Shown in pieces: positions 1,704 to 7,938 of a stretch of DNA of 64,000 nt. Location of the stretch: NCBI GenBank assembly GCA_000155695.1, contig DS990592.1:62001-126000 (forward strand), written 5' to 3'. This DNA comes from Verrucomicrobiia bacterium DG1235 (GTDB taxonomy: Bacteria > Verrucomicrobiota > Verrucomicrobiia > Opitutales > Opitutaceae). The notes under the pieces are model-generated. The model was not told the origin of the DNA. It did not search any database and worked only from the letters and a program-made list of their open reading frames with translations. Numbering within the stretch: position 1 is the stretch's first letter; the number at the start of each line of letters is the position of its first letter. The position numbers were made by a program, and so were the translations under genes.

Positions 1704-2600
1704 CTAACGTTGGGCGAGGTTTTCTGGCTGGGCGAGGGTGAAGTCCTCGAGGCGGATGGAGGCGGTGCCAACGGAGGTTTTGACGTCGAAGCGGACGGGG
1801 ACGCGATCGTCGTCGGCCGTGTACCAGACAGCCATCTTTCCGCCTTCGCGTAGGGTTTTGCTTTCCGGGTAGACCTGGACGGGCTCGACGCGGATGCAGT
1901 CTATTTTTCCGAATTCGGTTTTGATGGTTTCGACTTCCATGGCTTGCATTTCGACGAAGTAGAATTTTCCGCGGGTGGAGACGCAGGAGGAGTAGCGTTC
2001 GCCTATGTTCATCTCCCAACCGCGCATTTGCAGGATGAAGCTGGCGTAGTCGAGTGCGACGTCGTAGGGGATCTGGCGGGTTTTGTTGCGTTCGGGATCT
2101 TCTTCGTCGCTGTAGTCGACGATGTTTTCCTCGTAGTCGAAGAGGGCGAGGGTGCGACTGGTTTTTGAGCGTACCTTCTCGTCGACCTCGTCGCGGATGA
2201 TGCGCCAGTTTTCGGCGTCGAGGGTGGTGTTGGAAATCAGGGTGAGCGGGTAGATGCGGCGGATGAGTCCGTCGGAGCGGGTATCGAGCTTGACGGAGAA
2301 GAGGGGCGTGTCGCCGGTCTCGTCTGCGAGTTGGTCGGTGGAGACTTTGATTTTGCCCGCCTTGCGGAAGATGCCCCATTGGGCGCGGTAGGTGAATTGC
2401 TCGCCGGATTGGAAGCCGCTGCCGCGTTGCTCGGAGGCTGGGAAGGAGACTTCGGGCCAATCGAGCGTGTCGTCCTCCGATGTGGTTGTGCTTTCGTCGA
2501 ATTCGTCGCTGCCGAAGCCTGCATAGAGAATGACGGGGCTTGCGAGAAGCGCGGCGAAGGCGAGGCGTGTGCGTAGGGACTTTGAAATTCGAATGTGCAT
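1704..2600 (-). CDS. DUF3108 domain protein with signal peptide
   Basis: Predicted exported protein of 298 residues, starting at ATG 2600 (MHIRISKSLRTRLAFAALL). The N-terminus is a classic signal sequence with an Arg/Lys n-region, a hydrophobic core and an A-x-A-like end near residues 20-27. The mature part opens with an acidic linker (residues 30-45) and then matches the DUF3108 pattern: GEQFTYRAQWGIFRKAGKIKV, the motif YDVALDYASFILQMRG, and the C-terminal KMAVWYTADDDRVPVRFDVKTSVGTASIRL strand series. Family members are periplasmic or outer-membrane-associated beta-rich proteins of unknown role. The gene follows the exonuclease-ligase fusion on the same strand with a 77-bp gap. An overlapping frame continues upstream but would add a non-exported leader, so the ATG before the signal peptide is preferred. 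Confidence 0.8.
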   Translation of the reverse strand: MHIRISKSLRTRLAFAALLASPVILYAGFGSDEFDESTTTSEDDTLDWPEVSFPASEQRGSGFQSGEQFTYRAQWGIFRKAGKIKVSTDQLADETGDTPLFSVKLDTRSDGLIRRIYPLTLISNTTLDAENWRIIRDEVDEKVRSKTSRTLALFDYEENIVDYSDEEDPERNKTRQIPYDVALDYASFILQMRGWEMNIGERYSSCVSTRGKFYFVEMQAMEVETIKTEFGKIDCIRVEPVQVYPESKTLREGGKMAVWYTADDDRVPVRFDVKTSVGTASIRLEDFTLAQPENLAQR

Positions 2601-2677: not shown

Positions 2678-4975
2678 CTAGTCTTCTTGAGGGGCCAGCT
2701 TGAGCCAGGTGTCTCCGGCGGCGAGCGGATTGTAGGGGCTCCGGGGGTCCTTGAAGACGAGGCCGTTGTTTCCGGTGTTGATGGAGCGGGCGTAGGCTTG
2801 TTCGATTTGCTCGACTCCCATGAGGGGGAGGACGGGGGTGATGCGGATTTTTGGCGTAACGGAGAGCGTATCGAGTTTTTGGCGACGTTTTTCGAGCGGA
2901 AGGTCGAGCAGGTCGATGTCGGCGAGGCAAAGGATGTCGAAGAGCCAGAGTACGACGTGCACTTCTTCGCCAAGGAAGAGATCTTCGGCTTTCCGCGATA
3001 GGCGTTTCTCGAGCTCGGAGCGTGGGAGTGGCGCCTCGTAGCCCCAAGGGACGATGACGGCGTCGCAGATAAAGTGCTGTGGGATTTTTCGGGCTTCGTC
3101 TACGAATTCCGGAAAGAGGTGTGTGATACGCTCGTGGCTGGTCGAGTAGAGTTCGACGTGTTCTTCTTGCTTGTGGATTTGGCAGCGCATGCCGGCGTGC
3201 TCCTGTTCCACCCAGAGAGAGAGGCCTTGCTTTTCGATAATGGCTTCGGCGCTTGTTTCGGGGTGGGCGATGATCGGCGCAATGGGTTGAAAGAGTGAAA
3301 TACGGATACTGTCGAGGGTATCGCTAGCGGCGGCTTGCGCTACTGTATCTAAGTTTTGGCTACGGAGGTAGGCGGCTTGAGTAGCATCTACAGGGCGTTG
3401 GTAGCGGTTGGCGATGGCTTCGCAAAGGAGATTCGGCGTGATGCCGGTTTGTAGGGTGCTGGATAGGAATTGGAGGAGAAACGTGCCTTCGTTTGGAGAG
3501 AGCTTGCGGAATTGCTCGCTGAGGAGGGATTGCTTGAAAATGGGGTTTGGCGCAGCGGCTAGGGTGGTGAGGAATGAGTGTATGTCTCGGAGCGTTTTTT
3601 GAGGAGTTTTGGCGGAGCGGGCTAGAAGTTGGTGGGTAATTTGGAATTTGTCGCGAGATTCCTGATACAGTTGCTTGTATTCTGTTTCGCTTGATCCGGT
3701 GGCGAGGATGAGGGATTGGAGGACGAGTTTTTGAGTGAGTCCGTCGAGGGTTTTGGCGTTTGGCTCGACTAGGAGTTGGAGAGCGATGGGAACGAATTCC
3801 GGGTCGAGCGCGGCGATGTGATTGGAGATGAGGTCGGTTTTGTTTTGGAGGGAGTCTGTGGCCGCGAGGGCTAGGGACGTGAGGACGAGTGCTTCGAGGG
3901 AGCCTGGGGCGGCAGTGGGAGGGGGCGGGGTGGCTCGACTTTTTTTTGTAAGGTTACGAGAATTAGTTGCGGAGGTGTCGTTGGCGGAGGGGGTTGGGAT
4001 GTCGAGGCCGAGTTGGTTTTCGCGGCCTAGGGCCCAGGCTTGGTAGCCTTGCTGGCGGAGGGTGGCGGCGAATTCTTGGGCGAAGCCGTGGACGGTGTAG
4101 ATTGTTTTCGGGGCGACTTTGGCGACGAAGCTTTGGAGGTCGAGGTAGTCGGCGTGATCGGAGAGGGGGAAGGCTTTGTCGGTCTGGTAGCGGTAGGTCG
4201 AGGAGGGATCGATGGCCCAGCCGGATATTATGGCTGTCTTGGGATTTTTGATACGCTGGAGGAAAGGGGCGTTTTTTTGGAAGGGCGGGGAGATGACGAC
4301 TTTGCCTTGGTGGTCGCGTTCGTTGAAGGGGAGGTGGGACGGGAAGGTCCAGCCGAGCTTGGCGCAGGACTGGGTGAGCTTGAGGGCTGTTGGGTGCAGC
4401 ATGACTTCGAGCTTGGCGTCGGTGAGGGATCGGAGAATGGACTGGCTTTTGCCGAGGCTGTAGCCGAAGAGGACGGGGGTGTCGCCGTTTTCGAGGGTTT
4501 CGCGGCAGAAGCGGATTATGTCTGCGTAGACTTCGTTTTCCGGAGGGAAGGTGTATCGAGGAAGTCCATACGTGGTCTCGATGATGAGGGTGTCGACTTG
4601 AACGGGCTGGCAGGGTTCGGCGGAGATTCCGGGGGTGAGCTTAAAGTCGCCGGTGTAGAGAAAGCTTTCTCCGTCTTTCTCGAGCCAGAGCATGGAGGAG
4701 CCGACGATATGGCCGGCGGGGTAGAGGCAGGCTTTGGTGCCCGGCTCGAGTTCGAAGGGCTCGCCGAATTCGTGGATGCTCCATTTACGATCGCCCGGGA
4801 TGCGTTGCCGAATGAGCTGGGCGGTTGGGGGGCTGCAGAGGATTTCCTCGTGCTTGCCCATGTGGTCGAAGTGGGCGTGTGAGACGAAGGAGCGGGCGAC
4901 GGGTTTACGCGCGTCGAGGTGCCAGTCGAGTTGCGGTAGGTAGAGGCCGTTGCGTTGCTCGATTTGCCAGGGCAC
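2678..4975 (-). CDS. Beta-CASP exonuclease fused to a degenerate ATP-dependent DNA-ligase-like domain
   Basis: A 765-residue fusion with a GTG start at 4975. Residues 1-325 match the ligase-associated DNA exonuclease (metallo-beta-lactamase/beta-CASP): metal motif HAHFDH (His33, His35, Asp37, His38), LYTGD (Asp110), IIETTYG, SDHAD (His274) and TVHGF (His296). Residues 326-360 are a Thr/Pro/Ala-rich linker. Residues 360-560 look like the helical ligase N-domain, and 560-765 resemble a ligase adenylation domain (ending LVFKDPRSPY and DTWLKL). The usual KxDG motif reads E592-H-A594-G595, so the AMP-accepting lysine and the following aspartate are gone. The motif-III glutamate region reads CDAVIV, and the protein stops at motif V without an OB-fold. 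The nuclease half looks intact; the ligase half looks inactive. In many bacteria the two activities are separate neighbouring genes used in DNA repair. Inference: a repair nuclease with a vestigial or DNA-binding ligase module. Confidence 0.85.
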   Translation of the reverse strand: MPWQIEQRNGLYLPQLDWHLDARKPVARSFVSHAHFDHMGKHEEILCSPPTAQLIRQRIPGDRKWSIHEFGEPFELEPGTKACLYPAGHIVGSSMLWLEKDGESFLYTGDFKLTPGISAEPCQPVQVDTLIIETTYGLPRYTFPPENEVYADIIRFCRETLENGDTPVLFGYSLGKSQSILRSLTDAKLEVMLHPTALKLTQSCAKLGWTFPSHLPFNERDHQGKVVISPPFQKNAPFLQRIKNPKTAIISGWAIDPSSTYRYQTDKAFPLSDHADYLDLQSFVAKVAPKTIYTVHGFAQEFAATLRQQGYQAWALGRENQLGLDIPTPSANDTSATNSRNLTKKSRATPPPPTAAPGSLEALVLTSLALAATDSLQNKTDLISNHIAALDPEFVPIALQLLVEPNAKTLDGLTQKLVLQSLILATGSSETEYKQLYQESRDKFQITHQLLARSAKTPQKTLRDIHSFLTTLAAAPNPIFKQSLLSEQFRKLSPNEGTFLLQFLSSTLQTGITPNLLCEAIANRYQRPVDATQAAYLRSQNLDTVAQAAASDTLDSIRISLFQPIAPIIAHPETSAEAIIEKQGLSLWVEQEHAGMRCQIHKQEEHVELYSTSHERITHLFPEFVDEARKIPQHFICDAVIVPWGYEAPLPRSELEKRLSRKAEDLFLGEEVHVVLWLFDILCLADIDLLDLPLEKRRQKLDTLSVTPKIRITPVLPLMGVEQIEQAYARSINTGNNGLVFKDPRSPYNPLAAGDTWLKLAPQED

Positions 4976-5066: not shown

Positions 5067-5486
5067 TTAGATGCCTTTTCGGTCGAGGGAGAGGCGTCCT
5101 GGGCCGATGAATACGAGGCCGAGGAGAGCGAGGGTGATTTGCAGGTGGGCGAGGAAGCTGAGCTGGAAGGAGCCGGCGGCGATGTGGTTGGCGAGGGCGA
5201 AGCTGACGACGATAGTGAGGAATAGGGAGGATGCTCGGGTGAAGAGTCCGATGACGAGGAGGATGCCTCCTATGAATTGGATGATGCCGGAGGCGAGTCC
5301 GGCGGCCTTGAAGAGAGAGGCGTTGAGGCTGGCGATTTCGGCACCTTGGCCGACTTCTATCCACACGTCTCCGCCGCCGGTGAGGATGGGGTAGCCGTGA
5401 AAGGCGAGGAGAGCGCCGACTCCGATGCGGAGTAGGAGGACTCCGAAGAAGTCAAATTTGCTGAGGCCTGCGAGGGGAGATTTCAT
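5067..5486 (-). CDS. DoxX family membrane protein
   Basis: A 139-residue integral membrane protein with four hydrophobic segments, at about residues 12-30, 60-82, 85-103 and 112-128. It shows DoxX hallmarks: LLLRIGVGALLAFHGYPIL near the N-terminus, IIQFIGGILLVIGLFTR in the middle and LGLVFIGPGRLSLD at the C-terminus. DoxX proteins are small inner-membrane proteins of poorly defined redox or stress function; no specific substrate can be assigned here. It lies 91 bp upstream of the exonuclease-ligase gene on the same strand and could be co-transcribed with it. Confidence 0.85.
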   Translation of the reverse strand: MKSPLAGLSKFDFFGVLLLRIGVGALLAFHGYPILTGGGDVWIEVGQGAEIASLNASLFKAAGLASGIIQFIGGILLVIGLFTRASSLFLTIVVSFALANHIAAGSFQLSFLAHLQITLALLGLVFIGPGRLSLDRKGI

Positions 5487-6672: not shown

Positions 6673-7938
6673 ATGTCTATATCACTGTTAACCAACCAAT
6701 CAGCGACGATGGCGGCTAATAACCTGTCATCGGTGAGCACTCAGTTGCAGCAAAGTCTTCGAAGGATGACGAGCGGCATGAGCGCTACAGGCCCTAGCGA
6801 GGACGCTGGGGGGCTGGCGGTGTCCATGAAGATGGACGCGGCTATAAGGCGGCAGGCTTCGGCTAGCGCCAGCATAGGAAATACTTTGTCGTATCTGCAG
6901 ACGCAGGACGGGGCGATGAATACGGCGAGCGAGATTCTATCGCGTATCGGCGAGTTGAAAACGCTGTCGCAGGATGTGACGAAGAATACTACGGACAAGG
7001 CGAATTACAACACGGAGTTTCTCCAGTTGAAGGAGCAGCTTAGCGGGCTGACGAGCGAGACGTTTAACGGGTTGTCGTTGTTTGGCTCAGAGTCTCTTAC
7101 GGTGAAGACTTCAGGCAATCCGGATGGGGGAACGATTCAGCTTAGCGGAGTGGATTTGCTGGGGTCTGGTCCTTTGTTTGAGGACGATTTCTCTGGTTCC
7201 AGCTTGAGTAGTGATTGGACGGTCAACTCGGGTAGTCCTGCAGTAAATTCTGGAGTGCTTACTCTTGATGGAAGTCGTATCACATTAGCGGAGGCGTTTG
7301 ATGAGGACGTAAGCGTCGAGGTGCAGGTCCGGTTCGACAATTCCTCGGATCAGTTGGATATTTACAACGACAGTAACTATTATCTGTCTGGCTATATTGA
7401 TGGCAATGAATTGCCCGATACCGATTGGCATACGTTGACTTTCGACCTGGCGACCGATGGAACGATGGCGAATCTGGAGCTTGATGGTTCTGACTTCTCG
7501 TCGGCTACTGGAACTGTGAGTACTGCGAGCGGAGATATAAGCTTCGGGCTAAGTGAATCGGGATCTGGAGACGGCGTTGAATTTCGCAATTTGAGTGTGT
7601 CTCCTCAAAGTGGAGTCTCTTCCAGTTCGAGTGTCGGATCGGTGGCCAGTACGGCGGATCTCGATAGCGTGGATATTGAAACCGTGAAGGACGCGATTGG
7701 CGAGGTGGCGACGTTTCGGGCGCAGAATGGGGCTCAGCAAAGCCGCCTGAATTTTGCCCAGGAGCAGCTCAATACGAATCGCGTGAACCTTGAGGCGGCG
7801 AAGAGCCGGATCATGGACGTGGACGTGGCGGCTGAGTCGACGAATTTGGCTCGCTTGAATATTCTTCAACAGGCTGGGGCTTCGATGCTGCAGCAGGCGA
7901 ACCAGAGCCAGCAGATCGCCTTGAAGCTGATCGGATAG
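6673..7938 (+). CDS. fliC: Flagellin with concanavalin A/LamG-like central insert
   Basis: Flagellar filament subunit, 421 residues, with the ribosome-binding site AAAGGA 6 bases upstream. The N-terminal D0/D1 region (residues 1-140: LLTNQSATMAANNLSSVSTQL, RMTSGM, AGGLAVSMKMDA) and the C-terminal D1/D0 region (residues 330-421, ending LQQAGASMLQQANQSQQIALKLIG) are typical. Residues 168-311 are an inserted all-beta domain beginning FEDDFSGSSLSSDW and containing VNSGVLTLDG, VSVEVQVRF and WHTLTFDLATDG. That pattern is seen in LamG/concanavalin A-like jelly-roll domains, so the surface-exposed D2/D3 position probably carries a glycan-binding-type fold (inference). No other flagellar gene lies in the window. 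The gene is driven by its own sigma-28 promoter, and its 3' end overlaps the Nudix gene on the opposite strand by 128 bp. Confidence 0.92.
   Translation: MSISLLTNQSATMAANNLSSVSTQLQQSLRRMTSGMSATGPSEDAGGLAVSMKMDAAIRRQASASASIGNTLSYLQTQDGAMNTASEILSRIGELKTLSQDVTKNTTDKANYNTEFLQLKEQLSGLTSETFNGLSLFGSESLTVKTSGNPDGGTIQLSGVDLLGSGPLFEDDFSGSSLSSDWTVNSGSPAVNSGVLTLDGSRITLAEAFDEDVSVEVQVRFDNSSDQLDIYNDSNYYLSGYIDGNELPDTDWHTLTFDLATDGTMANLELDGSDFSSATGTVSTASGDISFGLSESGSGDGVEFRNLSVSPQSGVSSSSSVGSVASTADLDSVDIETVKDAIGEVATFRAQNGAQQSRLNFAQEQLNTNRVNLEAAKSRIMDVDVAAESTNLARLNILQQAGASMLQQANQSQQIALKLIG

Follow-up and report, generated by a model that had tools for sequence, protein, structure and literature searches.

The window analysed here, a stretch of 64,000 nucleotides from Verrucomicrobiia bacterium DG1235, lies on a 5.5 Mb contig and carries on its reverse strand a gene (2678..4975) that starts with GTG and encodes a protein of 765 amino acids. 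The start position agrees with that of the relatives L032 and L033 (L-numbers denote loci and G-numbers genomes throughout), and coordinates, strand, length and residues were as given in a preliminary description made from the sequence. The protein comprises an MBL/beta-CASP nuclease (residues 1-316, 4028..4975; TIGR04122, E = 1.5e-65), a variable linker (residues 317-359, 3899..4027), in which residue windows between 321 and 360 have an invariant fraction of 0.05-0.2 in the six dead rows of the genus, a fast evolving ligase DNA-binding domain (DBD; residues 360-555, 3311..3898; PF04675 at residues 370-522) and an adenylation (nucleotidyltransferase) domain (residues 556-763, 2687..3310; PF01068 at residues 567-760), all on the reverse strand. 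A DoxX-family gene lies upstream (5067..5486) and a DUF3108 gene downstream (1704..2567), both also on the reverse strand. Both also adjoin live, that is KxDG-bearing, copies of the fusion in another genus, here called g13, and the DUF3108 gene also adjoins the live copy in G006, while neither neighbour was picked up at the live copy of G005. Elsewhere in the window, a flagellin gene (6673-7938, forward strand) encodes N- and C-terminal Flagellin domains, between which some 200 residues look, on visual inspection, like a lectin/LamG-like insert.

The ligase half is of the LigB type and, judged by its sequence, is a true homologue of DNA ligases and not a chance match. Pfam DNA_ligase_A_M (PF01068) and DNA_ligase_A_N (PF04675) match it with E-values of 1.1e-28 and 3e-10, and the solved ligases 3rr5, 9dfa, 9df9 and 2cfm match at 4e-31 to 1.4e-32 with their motifs aligned. 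An AlphaFold2 model from a 3-row alignment reached a mean pLDDT of only 37 and a pTM of 0.25, too low to be of use, and we assign the fold of this half from homology. Motifs I, III, IV and V deviate. Motif I reads EHAG in place of KxDG (residues 592-595, 3191..3202), with E592 on the lysine of the solved ligases. Motif III reads DAV in place of DGE (residues 638-640, 3056..3064) and motif IV NGLVFK in place of EGLMxK (residues 737-742, 2750..2767), so that V640 and N737 stand where relatives have the glutamates. In motif V (WLKLA in place of WLKLK, residues 757-761, 2693..2707) the second lysine is lost as well, and the open reading frame stops just past WLKL, the protein ending four residues after the motif without an OB domain. 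Searches for an OB domain in the 1.5 kb downstream of the dead loci of this genus gave chance-level matches only (E 3.7 or worse). The preliminary description had reported the replacement of the KxDG lysine (E592-H-A594-G), the missing motif III glutamate and the end at motif V; all three hold against the solved ligases and the relatives, and the losses of the motif IV glutamate and of the second motif V lysine are defects that it had not listed. From these residues, loss of ligation is near certain. A sequencing error appears very unlikely, since five other genomes of the genus share the same dead state. The protein thus resembles a pseudoenzyme at the sequence level: homology is kept, catalytic residues are lost, and the domain is retained by selection (see below).

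The nuclease half shows no such decay. Nine residues that we take to be the metal site (H33, H35, D37, H38, H89, D110, E133, H274 and H296) are identical in 32/32 aligned fused proteins, and the six metal ligands named in the preliminary description (His33, His35, Asp37, His38, Asp110, His274) are kept here and in every dead row. Against the TIGR04122 profile the nuclease scores 221 bits and thus stays below the equivalog cut-off of 325. It contains an RMMBL domain and resembles the nucleases Apollo and DCLRE1A, whose structures have been solved. Many genomes of the family match the nuclease only, with about 45-56% identity. In a nuclease tree of 49 rows, the fused proteins from ten non-family genomes fall outside the family rows, and six nucleases taken as stand-alone branch among the fused ones of the family, with moderate support and a long outgroup. 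From this nesting, it is probable that genes with the nuclease only derive from fusions that lost their ligase half.

To describe the distribution of the fusion we refer to the genus of the window as g1 and to a second genus with dead copies as g48. The ligase half was matched in 75/252 genomes of the family (E <= 1e-20). Motif I could be read in 73 of these, namely 60 with KxDG (two sets of 19 and 39, the latter after removal of the duplicate row G198, plus G034 and G050) and 13 that are dead and OB-less; the other two, L098 (G247) and L105 (G256), are decayed copies of the dead fusion, both in g48. At L155, L156, L159, L163 and L164 the contig begins inside the gene, so that a fusion is not visible, and at L143 and L167 the nuclease motif did not align. 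A phylum sample of 387 genomes gave 39 matches at 1e-15, of which 25 lie beyond the family. Twenty of these 25 were examined and 20/20 keep the nuclease motif and KxDG; left out were G537 (a frame of 935 aa) and G313, G335, G428 and G441 (ligase-sized frames of 538-555 aa). The 13 dead rows thus share losses that set them apart from 80 other rows with KxDG. As live fusions are widespread in the family and also occur outside it, we judge the fused form to be of old standing in the class, whereas dead copies, as far as copies were read, are confined to two genera. The preliminary description had stated that nuclease and ligase are separate enzymes in known bacteria, which does not apply to this class, where fused proteins with intact motifs are common.

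Six of the eight g1 genomes carry the dead form, with E592-H593 in 6/6 and DAV or DAA at motif III, whereas G005 and G006 are live and retain the OB domain. In g48, nine genomes were matched, and all seven with an intact frame are dead, with L or R at position 592 and T or L at position 640. Both g13 genomes are live (2/2). All 13 dead copies terminate at motif V or within a few residues of it. The dead state is therefore wider than one strain and is common to several species (6 g1 and 7 g48 genomes). KxDG in close relatives had been put forward as a sign of a sequencing error or a recent single-strain loss; KxDG does occur within the same genus (G005, G006), but the loss is not that of a single strain. 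Named relatives are Pelagicoccus sp. SDUM812005 and SDUM812002 with 68% identity, and 22 fused relatives (rows L003-L024) share 39-69% identity over the matched length. Together with the DoxX and DUF3108 neighbours shared with the live g13 copies, this identity establishes, as far as sequences tell, common descent with the Opitutus-type fusion of nuclease, DBD and adenylation domain. A further OB-less copy was observed at L160 (G164), where the frame from base 303 has intact KxDG, DGE and EGLM motifs and ends about 10 residues past motif V. This fused frame runs into the next open frame and represents a third loss of the OB domain at the same boundary. An OB-less protein with its motifs kept would fit an order of events in which the OB domain was lost before catalysis.

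The trees differ as to whether the dead form arose once or twice. In the nuclease tree, well-supported branches force two changes, and a single dead clade is rejected (AU p 0.014). A tree of the neighbouring RpoN gene from 11 genomes, in which the decayed G256 was counted among the dead, has the same shape, with G006 grouping with the dead g1 rows and g13 with g48. The ligase-half tree, in contrast, unites all 13 dead rows (support 99/97, and 87/96 without the motif columns), but both dead stems are long in this tree (0.55 and 0.71) and a g1 clade is not rejected by the ligase data (p 0.076; 0.167 without the motif columns). Position 751 is L in 13/13 dead rows and G in 19 live rows, which speaks for common ancestry. 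Based on the nuclease and RpoN trees, two independent losses are favoured although the ligase tree disagrees; the alternative would be a single loss, after which the ligase half recombined. A tree of the neighbouring sulfite reductase was discarded due to long branches.

In the dead adenylation domain, K592, E640 and E737 are lost in 13/13 dead rows and position 679 is variable, while E590, G595, R597, D680 and K742, to which we presume nucleotide-pocket roles, are kept in 13/13. The five retained residues would be in line with a repurposed domain that gates the nuclease by binding ATP, AMP or NAD, with no adenylation taking place; given the uniform loss of the other three and the variability at 679, we consider such a domain very improbable.

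To estimate selection we calculated NG86 ratios for 14 hand-chosen pairs (9 dead, 5 live), which are rough values due to high synonymous divergence. For the adenylation domain, the dead pairs gave 0.133, 0.050, 0.107, 0.104, 0.143, 0.074 and 0.336, with two saturated, and the live pairs 0.124, 0.277, 0.135 and 0.351, with one saturated. All computable ratios are well below 1, and in the dead pair G250/G253 the adenylation domain (0.050) compares with 0.070 for the nuclease. By this measure, the dead adenylation domain is under purifying selection. At the same time, the ligase half has accelerated while the nuclease has hardly changed. Invariant columns make up 0.49 (g1) and 0.37 (g48) of the adenylation domain in the dead sets compared to 0.58 and 0.59 in two live sets, 0.23 (g1) and 0.21 (g48) of the DBD compared to 0.46 and 0.32, and 0.58 (g1) and 0.48 (g48) of the nuclease compared to 0.53 and 0.55. 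Likewise, the dead adenylation domains lie at mean distances of 1.17 and 1.30 from the other live rows in comparison to 0.59 for near live relatives, and the nuclease at 0.73 and 0.77 in comparison to 0.71. The relaxed DBD, the faster adenylation domain, the two decayed g48 copies and the nuclease-only genes of the family could all be expected if the ligase half were a decaying passenger of the nuclease whose removal is merely slow. However, 13 frames have stayed open despite high synonymous divergence, the adenylation-domain ratios are 0.05-0.34 and the E592-H593 pair is identical in 6/6 dead g1 rows, so that we regard a mere relic as improbable. New constraint after the loss was considered for residues 461-500 and 701-720, which seemed specially conserved in both dead clades, but is not claimed, as live G005 and G006 share both segments and g13 shares 461-500; columns conserved only in the clade are also few (16 in the nuclease, 8 in the DBD and 8 in the adenylation domain).

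A loop of the DBD is relaxed as well. For residues 501-520, invariance is 0.10 in the g1 dead set and, counted without row G249, also in the g48 dead set, compared to 0.75 in six live rows. This segment includes the GDLRIG loop (506-511), each position of which is kept in at least 18 of 19 KxDG rows and which, presumably, contacts DNA, as we assume from ligase structures. It is lost in 6/6 dead g1 rows; in the window the site reads STLQTG (3443..3460, reverse strand). In g48, G250, G251, G252 and G253 keep GDLK or GDFK, whereas G054, G249 and G255 do not. The adenylation domain thus appears relaxed yet conserved, and the putative DNA-contact loop seems to have been freed from constraint, entirely in g1 and to some extent in g48. 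Furthermore, the mean net charge of the adenylation domain is -9.5 and -8.1 in the dead sets, -5.2 in near live relatives and -0.4 in other live rows. These data bear on the idea of a DNA-end sensor raised in the preliminary description. In this reading the dead half would have retained its binding to DNA, at ends or nicks, and would steer the nuclease to breaks; inactive Lig4, which aids NHEJ, offers an analogy. Homology of the DBD and adenylation domain is retained, R597 and K742 are present in 13/13 dead rows and GD(L/F)K remains in the loop of 4/7 dead g48 rows; moreover, catalytically inactive DNA ligase IV has been described to promote repair (PMC9638927) and Artemis to bind Lig4 (PMC4037875). 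Yet the loop is gone in all g1 and in 3/7 g48 dead rows, the OB domain is missing, the dead adenylation domain is more acidic than the live one and it is this domain rather than the DBD that is conserved. The sensor idea is thereby weakened, and we hold it to be unlikely; a scaffold, the other role named in the preliminary description, may still apply.

We also asked which other ligases and partner genes accompany the fusion. In the genome of the window, the fusion is the sole PF01068 match. Of the six dead g1 genomes, four (G000, G002, G004, G007) have no further match, whereas G001 and G003 do; G054, the only g48 genome searched, has no match besides the fusion. An adenylation-domain match of the NAD-dependent (LigA) type was found in 10/10 genomes searched, with two in the genome of the window; a second match of this kind (in the window's genome, G000:C6:4208886-4209620) also occurs in five of the other nine genomes. 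Genes for a helicase (TIGR04121) and a phosphoesterase (TIGR04123) adjoin the fusion in 8/19 live genomes (G010, G011, G013, G020, G040, G055, G058, G068) and in none of the 13 dead genomes. As 11 live genomes, including G005, G006 and g13, also lack these adjacent partners, partner loss alone does not explain the loss of the ligase. An adjacent Lhr helicase and phosphoesterase are also not strictly defining for this type of fusion, since only 8/19 live genomes have them and the Dry Valley fusions, as described in PMC10140301, do not. G003 contains a separate set of nuclease, 539-aa ligase, helicase and phosphoesterase and has kept the dead fusion in addition. In G247, whose own fusion is decayed, a separate nuclease, a helicase and a phosphoesterase lie near each other on contig 13. 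At L115 (7994-15145, genome G068), genes for helicase and phosphoesterase accompany a live fusion, and after them comes an additional gene for a nuclease without ligase, which shares about 48% identity with the fused nuclease (all in one row).

The fact that related species share and preserve the dead half suggests a job other than joining. On balance we lean towards a nuclease that is supported or regulated by a conserved pseudo-ligase module without catalytic activity, while LigA would take over the sealing. An ancestral fusion of nuclease and LigB-type DNA ligase would have given up ligation and kept the nuclease together with the body of the adenylation domain. The resulting protein would be unable to self-adenylate or seal, its dead half may serve as a folded module that aids the nuclease by stability, substrate access or partner docking, and the trimmed ends could be sealed by the NAD-dependent LigA. 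The shared losses, the low NG86 ratios, the intact nuclease residues, the LigA-type match in 10/10 genomes and the lack of a second PF01068 match in four dead g1 genomes point in this direction. So does a report on a fused homologue whose nuclease part, produced alone, was insoluble, but in the same account the full-length protein was also poorly soluble (PMC10140301). Against the supporting module stand the faster evolution of the ligase half and its lower number of invariant columns than in the live sets. In addition, the decayed copies indicate that the fusion is dispensable in two g48 genomes, and the many family genomes matching the nuclease only indicate that the nuclease does not always need such a module.

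Plant DNA ligase 6 carries a nuclease-like part ahead of its ligase. In bacteria, the fusion itself is already known: a nuclease-LigB fusion has been reported from a Dry Valley cluster, with Opitutus terrae (OTER_RS15935) named as precedent, and its ligase part DV-1-1-Lig seals nicks (PMC10140301). As described there, these fusions have the same order of nuclease, DBD and adenylation domain as the protein of the window but also a C-terminal OB domain, whereas here the OB domain and the catalytic motifs are absent; O. terrae has helicase and phosphoesterase genes alongside, in contrast to the Dry Valley fusions (PMC10140301) and to the gene of the window. The same source refers to a separate four-gene set of LigB, TIGR04122 exonuclease, Lhr-type helicase and phosphoesterase (Ejaz and Shuman 2018, cited in PMC10140301), the role of which it states is not known; nuclease and ligase of this set are homologous to those of the window, but they are separate genes and the ligase is intact. 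In word searches of open-licence papers, no bacterial DNA ligase that is conserved yet catalytically dead was found to be reported. In eukaryotes, Lig4 and Artemis likewise pair an MBL nuclease with a ligase in a structural role, but they are separate proteins and the ligase is active in nature (PMC9638927, PMC10858965, PMC4037875, as far as described there). It may tentatively be speculated that the pseudo-ligase arose twice, that two genera independently lost the OB domain, at one and the same boundary, along with the chemistry of adenylation, and that the leftover domain now serves the nuclease as a dedicated part without catalysis, much as Lig4 has a structural role beside Artemis; we consider this combined scenario possible rather than probable. 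Within one family, the active fusion, the OB-less form with catalytic motifs, the dead OB-less form and the nuclease alone form a natural series, which allows a direct test of what the ligase contributes to the nuclease apart from catalysis.

With regard to a mobile or defence context, there was no PADLOC match to a defence system at E 0.01 and no match in phages at 1e-10. Matches were found in 86 plasmid records, all with less than 60% identity. The four best are haloarchaeal megaplasmids, which encode a similar nuclease and an ATP-dependent ligase as adjacent separate genes.
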